A stretch of DNA of 32,288 nt. Origin: an uncultured Bacilli bacterium. Its GTDB lineage: Bacteria; Bacillota_I; Bacilli_A; RF39; UBA660. Within the stretch, counting starts at the first letter, position 1. Each line of letters starts with the position of its first letter. This document shows, piece by piece, positions 14,565 through 23,788 of this stretch. A program made the position numbers and the translations under genes. The stretch covers positions 1-32,288 of the forward strand of contig CALVON010000036.1 in NCBI GenBank assembly GCA_944350315.1, given 5' to 3'. The notes under the pieces were generated by a model. It was not told the origin of the DNA and searched no databases. It saw only the letters and a program-made list of their open reading frames with translations.

Positions 14565-17138
14565 ATGAATGATGCATATAAAAAAGATATTGAAGAATTA
14601 TTAAATGAATTAGATACTTCTTTAAAGGGAATTAAACATGATAAAGTTAAAAAATTACAAAAATTGAATGGAAAGAATGTTTTGATCGAAAAGAATAAAA
14701 AGACAAGACTAGAGATTTTTTTAGGTCAATTTAAAAATATTATGATTATATTACTACTTATTGTAGGCTTTTTATCTTTAGGATATGCAATTGTCAATAA
14801 AAGTGATTTTTTAGAGCCAATTGTTATACTGGGAACAACTTTAGTTAATTGTTTTATGGGATTTTTGCAAGAATCAAAGGCCGAGGATGCAATAGGAAAA
14901 TTAAAAAAATATTCAGCTAATTATGTTACTGTTAAGAGAAATAATAAATATAAAAATATCGATTCTAAAAATTTAGTTGTAGGTGATTATATTACTTTAG
15001 AATCAGGGGATAAAATACCAGCAGATGCAAGGATTGTTAAAAGTTATTATGCTAAAGTAGATGAGTCTATATTGACTGGAGAAAGTGAAAATGTTTTAAA
15101 AAATGAAGATACAATCCATGAAGATGTTTTAATTTCAGATAGAAAAAATATGGTTTATTCGGGAACAGTATTAGTGACAGGTAAAATTGAAGCTATTGTA
15201 ACTGCTATTGGAATGAATACGGAGTTAGGGAAAATAGCAGATGCTATTAATACTGAGGATGAACCATTAACGCCTTTACAAGTAAAAGTTAAAAAAATTA
15301 GTAAGTTTATTTTGATTGTTTCATGTGTTTTAATAAGTTTTGTTTTAGTTTATGGAGTTATTAATAATTATGATATTTTGACTTTAGCAATGCTTTGTAT
15401 TTCGATGATTGTAGCAAGTGTTCCAGAATGTTTGCCAATAGCAATTACGGCAACTTTATCAATAGGTGTTAGTCAAATGGCTAAGAAAAAATCAATCGTA
15501 AGGAATCTAGCGGCAATAGAAACTTTAGGAGCTACTGAGGTTATATGTACTGATAAAACTGGTACTTTGACTTTAAATAGAATGGAAGTTGTTAAAGTTT
15601 TTAGTTCTTTAAAAGAGAATAAGCAAATAGATGGTATTTTTAAGAAAATAGTTGGTTATTGTAATACAGCTGTTTTAAATGAAGATGGAATTTATATCGG
15701 GGATTCAGTTGATGTAGCTTTAAAGAATTATTTAAAAGAAGAAGGTAATGATAAAAAAATTGCTGAATTACCTTTTGACTCTGATAGGAAGATGATGAGT
15801 GTAGTATATGAATCAGATAACAATGTTATGTTATATGCAAAGGGAAGTTGCGATTCAATAATTAATAAAAGTAATTGGGTATTAATAGATGGAAAAATTA
15901 TAAAGTTAGATAAAGAATTAAAGAAAAAATACAAAGAAATAGAAAATTTAATGTCTAGTGAGGCTTTGAAAGTATTAGCTTTTGCTTATAAGGAAACTAA
16001 ACTTAAAGATAATTATTTAGATGAAGAAAATGATTTAGTATTGGTGGGGTTAATTGGACTTAGAGATCCTGTTAGAAGTAATATTAAAGAGTCTATTAGT
16101 GATTGTTTAAATGCTGGAATTAGGCCAATAATGTTAACTGGTGATAATTTGGTTACGGCATATCAGGTTGCTAAGGAAGTTGGAATTTGTAAAAATGAGG
16201 AAGAATGTATTAATGCCTCTTTATTAGATGATATTTCACAGCAAGAATTAATCAAATATATAAAAAAATATTCTGTATTTGCGAGAGTTAGTCCTGATAA
16301 TAAATTACAGATTGTTAAAGCGATTCAAAAAATGGGAAAAGTTGTAGCAATGACAGGGGATGGAGTGAATGATGCTCCAGCAATCAAGTTAGCAAATGTT
16401 GGTATTGGAATGGGTAAGAGTGGGACGGATGTTACAAAAGATACTTCTGATATTATATTACTAGATGATAGTTTTAATACTATTACAGTTGCTATAAGAG
16501 AGGGAAGAAGAATATATGATAATGTAATAACGAATATACTATATAATCTGTCTAGTAATTTTACAGAAATAGCTATTATTATATTTGGAATGTTGACTGG
16601 AAATACAATTATTACAGCTGTTCATGTTTTATATATTGATTTAGTTGCTGATACTGTTCCGTCGATAACTTTAGCTTTTGAAGAAGGATCTAAAAATATT
16701 ATGAAAAGAAAACCTAATGGTTTAAATAAGAGAGTATTTACTAATTATTTTAGTGCATTTTTAATCATTTCAGTTATTTTAGAGACACTAATTAGTTTAT
16801 ATGTATATTATCATTTTATTAATTTAGGTAGCGATATAGCACAAACTTTGGCACTTCTTAGTATTGTTATTAATGAATTTGTTTTTGCTTATAATTGCCG
16901 TTCTTTAAAGGAACGAATCCATAAAAGAGGATTATTTAGTAATAGATATTTAAATATAGGAATTCTCATTTTGTTTTTAGTACAATTATTAGTATTTTTT
17001 ACACCAATAGGAAGAATTTTTGGATTAAAGATGATAAATATAAATCAACTAGTATTTGTAGTAGTGGTAAATTTATTATCTTTTGCAATAATTGAAATAA
17101 TAAAACCATTGATAGTTAAATTATTTAAAGATGAATAA
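14565..17138 (+). CDS. Calcium-type P-type (P2) ATPase
   Basis: 857 residues, GGTGAT site. Cation-pumping ATPase of the inner membrane. All core motifs are present: actuator TGES (171-174), phosphorylated Asp330 in DKTGTLT, KGSCDS nucleotide-binding segment near 430, TGDNL, and hinge TGDGVNDAP (597-605). The N-terminal domain and C-terminal M7-M10 spans fit the SERCA/PMCA-like group. In M4 the canonical P-E-G-L-P is P-E-C-L-P, and in M6 the usual N-L-V-T-D is I-D-L-V-A-D, so one Asn becomes Asp and one Thr becomes Ala. Calcium is the best guess, but these ligand changes leave ion specificity open. The following gene starts within 17 bases. Confidence 0.88.
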   Translation: MNDAYKKDIEELLNELDTSLKGIKHDKVKKLQKLNGKNVLIEKNKKTRLEIFLGQFKNIMIILLLIVGFLSLGYAIVNKSDFLEPIVILGTTLVNCFMGFLQESKAEDAIGKLKKYSANYVTVKRNNKYKNIDSKNLVVGDYITLESGDKIPADARIVKSYYAKVDESILTGESENVLKNEDTIHEDVLISDRKNMVYSGTVLVTGKIEAIVTAIGMNTELGKIADAINTEDEPLTPLQVKVKKISKFILIVSCVLISFVLVYGVINNYDILTLAMLCISMIVASVPECLPIAITATLSIGVSQMAKKKSIVRNLAAIETLGATEVICTDKTGTLTLNRMEVVKVFSSLKENKQIDGIFKKIVGYCNTAVLNEDGIYIGDSVDVALKNYLKEEGNDKKIAELPFDSDRKMMSVVYESDNNVMLYAKGSCDSIINKSNWVLIDGKIIKLDKELKKKYKEIENLMSSEALKVLAFAYKETKLKDNYLDEENDLVLVGLIGLRDPVRSNIKESISDCLNAGIRPIMLTGDNLVTAYQVAKEVGICKNEEECINASLLDDISQQELIKYIKKYSVFARVSPDNKLQIVKAIQKMGKVVAMTGDGVNDAPAIKLANVGIGMGKSGTDVTKDTSDIILLDDSFNTITVAIREGRRIYDNVITNILYNLSSNFTEIAIIIFGMLTGNTIITAVHVLYIDLVADTVPSITLAFEEGSKNIMKRKPNGLNKRVFTNYFSAFLIISVILETLISLYVYYHFINLGSDIAQTLALLSIVINEFVFAYNCRSLKERIHKRGLFSNRYLNIGILILFLVQLLVFFTPIGRIFGLKMININQLVFVVVVNLLSFAIIEIIKPLIVKLFKDE

Positions 17139-17154
17139 AGGAGAGAGATGTAGG

Positions 17155-17799
17155 GTGAAAAAAATTTTTTATTTGATGATATTATTATTTTGTTTTGCTC
17201 TGCTATTGACTTCTGGGTTAGTAATTTTTAATAGCTATAGTAATAAAATAGTTAGTTATTTATCAGTTGATATTAATCCAAGTTTTATGTTAGGATTAGA
17301 CAGAAATAATATTATCAAAGAAGTAGAATGTTTAAATAATGATGCCGACAAGCTACTAGATAATAATTCTATAATTGATAGTAATATTTCAGATGGATTA
17401 GAATTGATAGTGGATCTTGCCATAGAAAGAGGGTATGTTAATGATGAAGATATGGTACTATTATCTGTTTATTGTGATAATGATAAGTATCGAAAAAATT
17501 TAGAAAAGAAGGTTAATGATATAGTAGATAGCGGTTTAAACTTAAAGGGAATTGGTGCTTTGATAACTGATGAAGAGTTAACTTTGGAAGATGCACAAAA
17601 AGCAAATGAATATGGGGTTAGTGAAGCTAAAATTTTGTTTGTTAAGAAAGCTCTTGAAGATAATCCTGATTTAAAATTTGAGGACTTAATATATTTGCCA
17701 TCAAGAGAAATTGCTAAATATATTGATGAATATGAAGAATTAATTTCTAATGGTTCTCAGGGAAATAAATATGGGCAATCTAATGGTAATGGAATGTAG
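17155..17799 (+). CDS. RsgI-like membrane protein (without anti-sigma domain)
   Basis: 214 residues from GTG 17155, chosen because AAAGGAGAG lies 9 bases before it; the in-frame ATG at 17131 has no site and would put charged residues before the membrane span. One N-terminal span (about 3-25), then the RsgI middle-domain signature SYLSVDINPSFMLGLDRNN followed by I-x-E-V-x-x-L-N-x-D-A. The C-terminal part is acidic and helical and ends in a Gly/Asn tail. The cytoplasmic RsgI_N anti-sigma segment is missing and there is no SigI-like gene beside it, so signalling to a sigma factor is unlikely in the usual way. The close spacing suggests co-expression with the P-ATPase. Confidence 0.7.
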   Translation: MKKIFYLMILLFCFALLLTSGLVIFNSYSNKIVSYLSVDINPSFMLGLDRNNIIKEVECLNNDADKLLDNNSIIDSNISDGLELIVDLAIERGYVNDEDMVLLSVYCDNDKYRKNLEKKVNDIVDSGLNLKGIGALITDEELTLEDAQKANEYGVSEAKILFVKKALEDNPDLKFEDLIYLPSREIAKYIDEYEELISNGSQGNKYGQSNGNGM

Positions 17800-17804
17800 T
17801 ACGG

Positions 17805-17838
17805 AAAATAATAATTATTTAATAGTTATTATTTTTTT
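17805..17838 (+). terminator. Terminator after the RsgI-like gene
   Basis: AAAATAATAA (17805-17814) pairs with TTATTATTTT (17826-17835), followed by further T. Confidence 0.65.
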
Positions 17839-17841
17839 ATA

Positions 17842-17885
17842 TATATTTAGCAATCTATATTGACAATTGCTAAATATAGTGCTAA
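17842..17885 (+). promoter_or_regulatory. CIRCE-like (HrcA) operator before htpG
   Basis: A perfect 13-bp inverted repeat with arms at 17842-17854 and 17866-17878 contains TTAGCAATC-N9-AATTGCTAA, matching the CIRCE consensus TTAGCACTC-N9-GAGTGCTAA at 15 of 18 positions with exact spacing. A further half-site TAGTGCTAA (17877-17885) matches 8 of 9. It overlaps the promoter. Confidence 0.6.
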
Positions 17886-17888
17886 ACT
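17860..17888 (+). promoter_or_regulatory. SigA-type promoter of htpG
   Basis: TTGACA (17860-17865), 17-bp spacer, TAAACT (17883-17888). The -35 lies inside the CIRCE-like repeat, so repressor binding would block polymerase. Confidence 0.65.
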
Positions 17889-17925: not shown

Positions 17926-19782
17926 ATGTCAAAGAAACAATTTAAAGCTGAATCTAAAAAATTATTGGATATGATGATAAATTCTATATATACAAATCCA
18001 GAAATATTTTTAAGAGAACTTATTTCTAATGCTAGTGATGCAATTGATAAATTATATTATAGATCACTTACTGATAAAGAAATAAAAATAAAGAAAGATA
18101 AATTAGAAATATGGGTTATTCCCGATAAAGAAAAAAGAACCATTACAATAACTGATAATGGTATTGGAATGAGTAAAGAAGAACTTGAAGAAAATTTAGG
18201 TACTATTGCTAAAAGTGGATCTGAGTTGTTTAAAGAAAATAATGATAAGAAAAAAGATATTTCTATTATTGGACAATTTGGAGTAGGCTTTTATTCATCC
18301 TTTATGGTAGCTAAAGAAGTAGAAGTAATGAGTAGGAGTATCGACAGTGATAAGGGATATGTATGGAAATCATCTGGTGCTTCTGGGTATACAATAGAAG
18401 AATGTGATAAAGAGGATGTTGGTACTAAAATTATTCTTTATTTAAAAGATGATAATGATGAAAATAATTATTCTGAATATTTAGATGATTATAAATTAAT
18501 GAATATAATTAAAAAATACTCTGATTATATTAGATATCCTATTAAAATGAATGTTCAAGAAGATGGTAAAACTACTGAAAAAACTATTAATAGTATGATT
18601 CCTATATGGAAGAAAAAACAAAAGGATGTTAAAGAAGAAGAATATAATGATTTTTATACTGATAAATTTTATGATTATGAAAAACCTTTAAAAGTAATTA
18701 AGAGTGATGTTGAAGGGTTAACTAGTTATTCTGCTTTATTATTTATTCCTAGTCATGCTCCATATAATTATTACACTAAAGAATATGAAAAAGGATTACA
18801 GTTATATTCTAAAGGGGTAATGATTATGGATAAATGTAGTGAAATATTACCAGACTATTTTAGCTTTGTAAAAGGATTAGTAGATTCTGAAGATATTGCT
18901 CTTAATATCTCAAGAGAAACAATGCAAAGTAATCATCAGATTAGATTAATTGCCAAGAATATTGAAAATAAAATTCAAAAAGAACTTACTGATATGTTAA
19001 ATAATGAAAGAGATAAGTATGTTGAATTTTATAAAAATTTTGGTATGCAATTTAAACATGGAATATATGCTAGTTATGGAATGAATAAAGATAAGTTAGA
19101 AGATTTATTGCTATTTTATAGTTCTAAAGATGACAAATATATAACTTTATCAGAGTATGTATCTAGAATGAAAGAAGATCAAAAAGAAATTTATTATGCT
19201 AGCGGTGAAAGTATTGATATAGTTAAAATGCTACCACAAGTTGAAATGGTTACTGACAAGGGATATGAAGTTTTGTATTTAACTGAATATTTAGATGAAT
19301 TTGTAATTAAAGTACTTGGTAGTTATAAAGAGAAAACTTTTATAAATGTATGCGATAAAAATATTGATGTAGACACTGAGGAAGAAAAAGAAGAAATAAA
19401 AAAGATTAATGATGATAATAAAGAAATTTTAGAGAAGATTAAAGATAGTTTGGGTGATAAAGTTAAAGAAGTCAGATTTACAAATAAACTTAAGAATCAT
19501 CCAGTATGTTTAACTAGTATTGGAGAATTGTCTACATCGATGGAAAAGGTTATTAATACTATGCCAAATCAGGGTGATATGGTCCATGCTGAAGTAGCAT
19601 TAGAAATAAATAGTAATCATGATATAAGCAAAAAGTTAAAAGAGTTATATGATAATTCTCAATATAATGAAATAGAAAAATACAGTAAGATACTTTATAA
19701 TCAAGCTAGATTAATATCAGGCCTTGACATTGAAAATCCAAGTGATCTTACAAATATAATATGTGAAGTTATATCAAAATAG
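17926..19782 (+). CDS. htpG: Hsp90-type chaperone HtpG
   Basis: 618 residues, typical HtpG length. ATP-dependent cytoplasmic chaperone of the GHKL fold. N-terminal ATP-binding motifs are visible: ELISNASDAIDKL, DNGIGMSKEEL, and GQFGVGFYSSFMVA. The middle domain carries the ISRETMQ loop with its catalytic Arg, and the C-terminal dimerisation part is present. No disulfide or signal features. It is a single-gene unit: CIRCE-like operator and promoter before, terminator over its stop codon. This predicts heat-shock control by HrcA (inference from the operator). Confidence 0.97.
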   Translation: MSKKQFKAESKKLLDMMINSIYTNPEIFLRELISNASDAIDKLYYRSLTDKEIKIKKDKLEIWVIPDKEKRTITITDNGIGMSKEELEENLGTIAKSGSELFKENNDKKKDISIIGQFGVGFYSSFMVAKEVEVMSRSIDSDKGYVWKSSGASGYTIEECDKEDVGTKIILYLKDDNDENNYSEYLDDYKLMNIIKKYSDYIRYPIKMNVQEDGKTTEKTINSMIPIWKKKQKDVKEEEYNDFYTDKFYDYEKPLKVIKSDVEGLTSYSALLFIPSHAPYNYYTKEYEKGLQLYSKGVMIMDKCSEILPDYFSFVKGLVDSEDIALNISRETMQSNHQIRLIAKNIENKIQKELTDMLNNERDKYVEFYKNFGMQFKHGIYASYGMNKDKLEDLLLFYSSKDDKYITLSEYVSRMKEDQKEIYYASGESIDIVKMLPQVEMVTDKGYEVLYLTEYLDEFVIKVLGSYKEKTFINVCDKNIDVDTEEEKEEIKKINDDNKEILEKIKDSLGDKVKEVRFTNKLKNHPVCLTSIGELSTSMEKVINTMPNQGDMVHAEVALEINSNHDISKKLKELYDNSQYNEIEKYSKILYNQARLISGLDIENPSDLTNIICEVISK

Positions 19783-21991: not shown

Positions 21992-22477
21992 ATGGTAAAT
22001 AAAAAGAATTTATGGTTTTTAACATTATTTAGTTTAGTATTAGTTTTAAGTGTTTATTATATTACAATGCCATCAGAATTGTTAATGACAAATAATGGAA
22101 ATACTGAAGCAAATATTGATGTTGATATTGAAGAAGCAAGTATTATTGAAACTTTAAAACAAGAAGATGATAATAATACATTAGATGAAATTAATAAATA
22201 TAAAGAAACTATTAGTGATAGTGAGTCAACAACTGATGATAAAAATGAAGCTTTTGATGCAATTAAGATGCTTAATCAAATAAGTAGTAAAGAGGAGCTT
22301 TTAGAAGAAAAAGTTAAGACTACTCACAATTTAGATTCTTTTATTAAGATAGATGGTGATCAAATAAGGGTTGTTATTGATAGTGATGATCATTCTAGTA
22401 GTTTGGCAAATGATATAATGAGGACAATTCAAAGTAATTTTGATACTAAACAATACATTTCAATTCAATTTAAATAA
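21992..22477 (+). CDS. spoIIIAH: Stage III sporulation protein SpoIIIAH-like
   Basis: 161 residues with GAGGA site. N-terminal KKNLWFLTLFSLVLVLSVYYI is the characteristic SpoIIIAH membrane segment; YYITMPSE follows as in the family. The extracytoplasmic part has the helical region (EAFDAIKMLNQIS-KEELLEEK) and the C-terminal strand region (QIRVVIDSDDHSSSLANDIM) of the ring-building fold. In Bacillus the protein sits in the mother-cell membrane, binds SpoIIQ of the forespore and builds the channel between the two cells. Here it is outside any spoIIIA operon and somewhat short (Bacillus form about 218). Confidence 0.85.
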   Translation: MVNKKNLWFLTLFSLVLVLSVYYITMPSELLMTNNGNTEANIDVDIEEASIIETLKQEDDNNTLDEINKYKETISDSESTTDDKNEAFDAIKMLNQISSKEELLEEKVKTTHNLDSFIKIDGDQIRVVIDSDDHSSSLANDIMRTIQSNFDTKQYISIQFK

Positions 22478-22819: not shown

Positions 22820-22834
22820 TAATTGGGTGATGTC

Positions 22835-23788
22835 ATGTTAAGGAGAATGCTATATAGAAAATTAGCGGTAGCAACATCTATTTTACTTGTTATATTTATG
22901 ATGTATTTAATTCCCAATAATAAAGAAGAAATTGAAATAGAACAAAAATTAGAATATGTTTATCCGAATGATTTAGAAGTTATATATTTACTTGATAGTT
23001 ATGATAATGTATCAAGAACTGTACTTAGTGTTAATATGCAAGATGAAATAACAAAATCAAAAGATTTAATAGATGGATTAACAATTGGGGGAAAAAAACA
23101 GGATAAATTACCAAATGGATTTAAGGGATTATTACCTAGTGAAACAAAACTTCTTGATATTAGTTTAACTGATGGAATTCTTAAATTAAATTTTTCAAAA
23201 GAATTTAATAATGTTAAAGAAGAATATGAAGAAAAGTTGGTTGAAGCACTTACATATACTTTAACTAGTATAGATGGGGTAGATAAAATAGAGATATATG
23301 TAGATGGTAGTAAATTAGAATATTTACCAAATAGTAAGAAAAAGTTACCAGATAAATTAGATAAAAACTATGGAATAAATAAGCAATATGAAATGACTAC
23401 GTTAAATGATATATATTCATATACAGTATATTATGTTATGAATTATAATGATGCTACCTATTATACTCCAGTAACAAAGTATGTTAATAATAATAATCAA
23501 GATAAAGTAAAAGTAATTATTGATGAATTGGCAACATCTTTATCATATGAGAGTAATTTGATGAGTTATTTAAATAGTAATGTTAAGTTATTAGATTATG
23601 AGATCATTGATGATACTGTCAAATTAGAATTTAATGATTTAATATTATCTGACATTACTAATAATTTAATTTTAGAAGAAGTTATATATACAATAGGGCT
23701 ATCTTTGTGTGACGAATTAGATGTTACAGAAGTAATATTTATGGTAAATAGTCAAGAAATTTCTACTTTTTCTTTGAGTGATATTTAG
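22835..23788 (+). CDS. gerM: Germination/sporulation protein GerM
   Basis: 317 residues from ATG 22835 (GGGTGA site). One N-terminal span (KLAVATSILLVIFMMYLI), no lipobox cysteine, so it is membrane-anchored rather than a lipoprotein as in Bacillus. Two GerMN domains follow, at about 45-160 (KLLDISLTDGILKLNFSKEF, then ALTYTLTSIDGVDKIEIYVDG) and 190-315 (VKLLDYEIIDDTVKLEFND, then EEVIYTIGLSLCDELDVTEV). In Bacillus GerM is made in the mother cell and helps SpoIIQ and spore assembly; the SpoIIIAH gene nearby belongs to the same channel complex. A strong terminator follows. Confidence 0.9.
   Translation: MLRRMLYRKLAVATSILLVIFMMYLIPNNKEEIEIEQKLEYVYPNDLEVIYLLDSYDNVSRTVLSVNMQDEITKSKDLIDGLTIGGKKQDKLPNGFKGLLPSETKLLDISLTDGILKLNFSKEFNNVKEEYEEKLVEALTYTLTSIDGVDKIEIYVDGSKLEYLPNSKKKLPDKLDKNYGINKQYEMTTLNDIYSYTVYYVMNYNDATYYTPVTKYVNNNNQDKVKVIIDELATSLSYESNLMSYLNSNVKLLDYEIIDDTVKLEFNDLILSDITNNLILEEVIYTIGLSLCDELDVTEVIFMVNSQEISTFSLSDI

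Follow-up and report, generated by a model that had tools for sequence, protein, structure and literature searches.

The htpG gene described here most probably stands under the control of HrcA and forms part of a co-evolved, specificity-shifted HrcA/CIRCE pair, in which a changed wing of the repressor would be the cause of the changed operator. From the sequence comparisons set out below, we put the probability of this reading at about 0.7. The gene lies in the window, the whole 32,288-nt stretch of DNA from an uncultured Bacilli bacterium that was analysed. The novelty is the lineage-specific variant form of HrcA/CIRCE and not the membership of htpG in the regulon, as htpG has already been reported as an HrcA/CIRCE target in Clostridium acetobutylicum (PMC3828012, accessible portion).

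Judged from the sequence, a CIRCE-like operator overlaps the -35 hexamer of htpG with near certainty (Table 1). Direct reading reproduced what the preliminary description had reported for this promoter, namely a perfect 13-bp inverted repeat, its enclosure of the TTGACA hexamer, and a likeness to CIRCE (TTAGCACTC-N9-GAGTGCTAA) at 15 of 18 positions with the N9 spacing exact. It departs from the consensus at position 7 of both arms and at the right half's innermost base. A promoter scan gave a spacing of 17 nt between TTGACA and TAAACT, with TG ahead of the second hexamer. When up to three mismatches to CIRCE were allowed, the window held one match, compared with a shuffle mean of 0.02 (2 of 100 shuffles had one), and the whole host genome (G000; 1.18 Mb in 46 contigs, 94.9% complete) held two places including the htpG site, with none in the backward-read control. 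The htpG product itself scores 679.6 bits against NCBIfam NF003555 (cut-off 371).

Table 1. Features of the htpG operator and promoter (window coordinates)
Feature	Position	Strand	Basis
Perfect 13-bp inverted repeat holding the operator	17842-17878; arms 17842-17854 and 17866-17878	none	read directly
Left half-site of the HrcA operator, TTAGCAATC, A and not C at position 7	17847-17855	+	sequence reading, CIRCE pattern searches
Operator spacer, 9 bases	17856-17864		
-35 hexamer TTGACA, overlapping the operator spacer and the first right-arm base	17860-17865	+	
Right half-site of the HrcA operator, AATTGCTAA	17865-17873	+	sequence reading, CIRCE pattern searches
Supposed third half-site TAGTGCTAA, re-read as extended -10	17877-17885	+	letter counts
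Extended -10: TG 17880-17881, C, TAAACT 17883-17888	17880-17888	+	GTGn kept in relatives
htpG (HSP90), 618 aa, regulated gene	17926-19782	+	NCBIfam NF003555, Pfam PF00183

Several neighbouring features of the window were recorded. Just upstream of htpG, a P-type cation ATPase gene (14565-17138) overlaps an RsgI-like gene with an anti-sigma central domain (17131-17799). The latter is followed by an AT-only inverted repeat and a T run (17800-17840), noticed by eye and missed by the terminator scan, which requires G-C pairs. Sporulation and germination genes of the SpoIIIAH-like (21992-22477) and GerM-domain (22823-23788) types are also present in this 1.2-Mb genome.

The promoter architecture is alike in relatives. 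Among 80 htpG loci of other genomes, 63 have a CIRCE match of at least 15/18 within 250 bases before the gene; one more stands at 14/18 and sixteen at 11 or below, one of these with only 56 bases searchable. The 63 loci are titled Clostridia, Oscillospiraceae and uncultured Bacilli/Tenericutes, and at those of the last group the site lies over the -35 exactly as in the window.

The preliminary description had placed htpG in the HrcA regulon, and a search of the host genome found hrcA on another contig (G000:C40), where it heads hrcA-grpE-dnaK-dnaJ. Its product is a 331-aa protein with a winged-helix N-terminus (PF03444) and the HrcA C-terminal domain (PF01628), scoring 289.4 bits against TIGR00331 (cut-off 197.2). 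The form of the htpG operator recurs twice in the hrcA promoter: TTAGCAATT-N10-CATTGCTAA lies over the -35, and TTAGCAATT-N9-GATTGCTAG is close to the start codon. The second CIRCE-like place in the genome lies between the divergent clpB and hsp20 genes. Common to the htpG, clpB/hsp20 and hrcA-grpE-dnaK-dnaJ promoters is TTAGCAAT...ATTGCTAA, with A for C at arm position 7. This lineage form, TTAGCAAT-N11-ATTGCTAA (the A7 form), stands at every chaperone promoter found, and a whole-genome pattern search gave no site nearer the standard CIRCE consensus anywhere in the host. At three mismatches the A7 pattern matched 33 places in the host genome and 21 in the backward control, and matches beyond one mismatch were not used. 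Given the presence of hrcA and of the htpG operator form at the dnaK-operon and clpB/hsp20 promoters, htpG can be assigned to the HrcA regulon, as had been proposed. The outcomes named beforehand as refuting this, a genome lacking hrcA or dnaK sites with a different sequence, did not occur.

The clpB product (709 aa) is without the N domain and scores 1121.8 bits to TIGR03346, below the cut-off of 1232.1. A 548-aa open frame (L002, G000:C12:9557-9799) gave a further, weak match to the C-terminal domain of HrcA. A pair of CIRCEs separated by about 47 bp is the general arrangement upstream of hrcA in the family and class (L001, L100-L148 and others); in many genomes, the host included, the distal CIRCE measures 28 bp (N10) and not 27 bp.

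In some Gram-positive bacteria, clpB and hsp20 are controlled by CtsR. That the inverted repeat is bound by another regulator of this kind gains something from such cases (compare CtsR and hsp18 of C. acetobutylicum in the accessible portion of PMC3828012), but the CIRCE architecture and the co-variation of the site with HrcA make it extremely improbable. A CtsR search matched 0 of 60 genomes, although the same search missed B. subtilis and its control matched only in Lactococcus.

The evidence for a changed repressor comes from the family comparison. HrcA was detected in 183 of 193 family genomes, and the A7 form occurs with no mismatch in 14 of the 193, compared with none in the backward control of all 193. 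Among the matches listed, it stands at promoters other than that of hrcA in ten genomes (G000, G001, G018, G022, G076, G103, G144, G160, G203 and G210); target genes in relatives were assigned by eye from their initial residues, and Pfam was used to check two of them. Nine of these ten genomes have a detectable HrcA, and all nine proteins carry the wing H[FY]ASGR (HFASGR or HYASGR) in place of the ordinary H[TIVLS]S[SA]GR. The same wing is found in G216, the genome of locus L020, which has the same htpG operator, and in none of the 131 other HrcAs aligned. The alignment comprised 141 proteins: 111 from the family, 16 from the class and 14 others from a further search that found 15, the fifteenth (G210) being counted within the family. 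The 111 were drawn from the 183 genomes with a match and include every one of the 13 with an A7 site as well, score being the main basis on which the others were taken; 72 family genomes with an HrcA match and the class matches G039, G041, G042 and G051 were left out.

Within this alignment, residue 59 is F in nine and Y in one of the ten clade proteins, compared with T (70), I (48), V (8), L (3) and S (2) outside, and residue 60 is A in all ten compared with S in all 131 others, a serine criterion that derives from the present alignment and not from publication. These two residues are adjacent, lie in the wing within the DNA-binding domain, and are the only ones of 331 positions at which the clade residues are absent from all of the other 131 HrcAs; five further positions (57, 147, 261, 285 and 289) overlap by less than 10% between the clade and the others. 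The variant HrcA with A60 still scores above the family model cut-off. At the hrcA operators, whose arms are not independent, position 7 is A in 33 of 40 clade arms and in 50 of 434 elsewhere, and C in 2 of 40 and 313 of 434, respectively; seven of the 40 clade arms are thus not A. Residue 59 alone was rejected as the cause. As V, I, L, S and T at that position all occur with C7 sites, only the F/Y-A pair accompanies A7. Four genomes (G131, G141, G158 and G164) combine an ordinary wing with a single A/A site, which lies before hrcA, and therefore ordinary HrcA may tolerate an A/A operator.

On these comparisons, the three mismatches of the htpG site are read not as decay but as a shared, lineage-wide change. 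HrcA on the htpG operator would cover the -35 and block RNA polymerase, and heat would inactivate HrcA so that the extended -10 promoter could fire. Arm position 7 would have passed from C to A at htpG, hsp20, clpB and hrcA-grpE-dnaK-dnaJ while H[FY]ASGR replaced H[TIVLS]S[SA]GR in the wing; the likeliest reason is that the wing takes part in reading or fitting the position-7 base pair. We give somewhat better than even odds to a fuller account, in which residues 59 and 60 together would determine which base is read at CIRCE position 7, the pair would have rewritten all chaperone operators, and an arriving htpG would have taken the new operator, all in cells without GroEL.

A simpler explanation, that CIRCE drifted to A:T in a low-GC genome while HrcA acquired no new preference, is improbable. 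The window is indeed 25% GC, and position 7 is somewhat variable family-wide, as the counts for the hrcA-site arms of other HrcAs indicate. However, GC at the hrcA loci is equal in the clade and the non-clade family (means of 0.279 and 0.286, p 0.54), and of 102 non-clade family genomes, 74 do not exceed the clade GC maximum, yet C mostly persists in them (185 of 252 arms). Moreover, the clade change is specifically to A and recurs at all target genes among the matches listed. Base composition does not account for A7, and drift to A:T is not supported as its cause.

In the HrcA tree, the ten changed proteins form one clade on one stem with a support of 1.0; the wing and the operator perhaps changed together in a single event, since the ten group in this way. 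An artefact of the wing columns was dismissed, as a tree built without residues 55-64 keeps the ten together (support 0.999). The HtpG tree gives a different picture. The eight HtpGs of A7 genomes, a test group chosen after inspection of a first FastTree, are not one clade (log-likelihood 114 lower if constrained, p-AU 2.15e-06, IQ-TREE). This tree has four label changes, at least three of which are forced by well-supported branches, and HtpG of the window's genus groups (100/99) with L023, L025, L026, L027 and L029, whose htpG operators are C7. The htpG operators are A/A in six of seven changed-wing genomes, the seventh (G001) being A/G, compared with 0 of 19 ordinary-wing genomes; that of G203, in which HrcA was not detected, is also A/A. 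Three to four independent contrasts can be drawn on the HtpG tree, three of them on well-supported branches and none contrary, which are too few to reach significance (sign test p 0.25). One of the two, htpG or the hrcA operon, moved between lineages, and whichever it was, the operator type at htpG follows the resident HrcA.

GroEL is the usual modulator of HrcA. It was not found in the host genome, at 94.9% completeness, nor in any of 11 A7 genomes, compared with 14 of 14 control genomes in which it was. The host thus offers no groE site with which the htpG operator could be compared. A search of 37 family genomes (G000-G036) gave no GroEL match in 29, while HrcA is kept in 35. Several of the family GroELs score low and have no CIRCE upstream. 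In the locus scan, CIRCE was found before GroEL in G016, the only match in G035 was a poor one beginning at base 2 of its locus, and none was seen at the loci of G020, G021, G024, G027, G032 and G034. A literature search, mostly of open-access papers, gave no match for GroEL in RF39. GroE helps HrcA in B. subtilis and Campylobacter jejuni, and in the latter HrcA is also a heat sensor in its own right (PMC8533110, accessible portion). As no GroEL was found here, HrcA activity in this lineage is probably governed by DnaK or by the heat sensitivity of HrcA itself and not by GroE titration.

These findings could suggest that the wing change serves heat sensing or stability without GroEL, the operator change having arisen as a by-product or having fallen on the same branch by coincidence. 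The absence of a GroEL match in all 11 A7 genomes and the placement of both changes on one stem branch speak for this explanation, which we nevertheless regard as unlikely. The two unique residues sit in the DNA-binding domain. Furthermore, only four of the 29 GroEL-less family genomes are members of the A7 clade and most keep the ordinary wing; the loss does not track the wing and is not the cause of its change.

The preliminary description had also noted a third half-site, TAGTGCTAA, and proposed two alternative spacings of half-sites. The element is present and ends inside the -10, but its role as an operator does not hold, and letter counts favour an extended -10. At 24 non-hrcA clade promoters (overlapping loci counted once by sequence; one, L289, actually belongs to an hrcA locus), the bases ahead of the -10 are G20/A4, T23/G1 and G21/A3, followed by A7, T7, C8 and G2. 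At 28 other non-hrcA promoters, which include loci also lying before hrcA such as L224 and L235, they are G22, T22 and G17, followed by T10, G7, C6 and A5. GTGn ahead of the -10 is what we take to be an extended -10, the TRTGn motif of Gram-positives. Since a half-site needs C, yet the fourth base varies freely while GTG is kept, the third half-site is best read, on these counts, as an extended -10. A working third half-site at which HrcA would use two alternative spacings is accordingly very improbable: TAGTGCTAA matches the CIRCE half-site at 8 of 9 positions, but it keeps the canonical AGTGC with the old G:C form, whereas the real operators of the same genome have moved to ATTGC. As an operator element, it was ruled out by the counts at both promoter sets. 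The hsp20 promoter (L003, 1501-1575) has AAGTGCT at the -35 and again just before the -10, about 22 bp apart, and this pair stands beside the operator common to clpB/hsp20.

The system resembles the class I HrcA/CIRCE systems of B. subtilis and C. acetobutylicum in its 9-9-9 inverted repeat over the promoter and in the hrcA-grpE-dnaK-dnaJ target, and the latter organism also in the htpG target. Unlike them, the present lineage has A throughout at arm position 7 and the wing HFASGR/HYASGR, no GroEL was found as target or modulator, and clpB and hsp20 are also targets. The Mollicutes (Mycoplasma, Spiroplasma and Acholeplasma) are similar to this lineage in having reduced genomes and HrcA with CIRCE, which is located at dnaK, clpB and lon (PMC5138195 and PMC7737663, accessible portions), and Acholeplasma oculi has likewise lost GroEL and kept hrcA (PMC4221730, accessible portion). 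However, the Mollicutes site is described as extremely conserved or decaying (PMC5138195, accessible portion), whereas here it is replaced by a coherent new form.

In some Oscillospiraceae-like genomes (L066, L069, L094 and L095; HrcA loci L310-L313), a G7 CIRCE, TTAGCAGTC-N9-GACTGCTAA, stands before htpG and the wing is PHVSAGR, which is possibly a second, independent retuning. As in the present lineage, position 7 is altered, at several sites in both arms, and residue 59 is altered too, here to V in contrast to the T of the other clostridial HrcAs examined. The variant differs in having G and not A at position 7 and in that residue 60 is still S, and the link is weaker, as V59 elsewhere accompanies ordinary C7 sites.

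No retuned CIRCE with a changed HrcA wing was found in the HrcA/CIRCE literature, subscription papers being mostly outside the scope of the search. Few repressor-operator pairs in bacteria are as conserved as HrcA and CIRCE, and, since no DNA-bound HrcA structure was found, little is known of the way in which HrcA recognizes its operator. The GroE titration model cannot, in its present form, hold for HrcA systems in which no GroEL was found. A coherent natural change of one operator base and two unique adjacent repressor residues would provide a direct and small test system.
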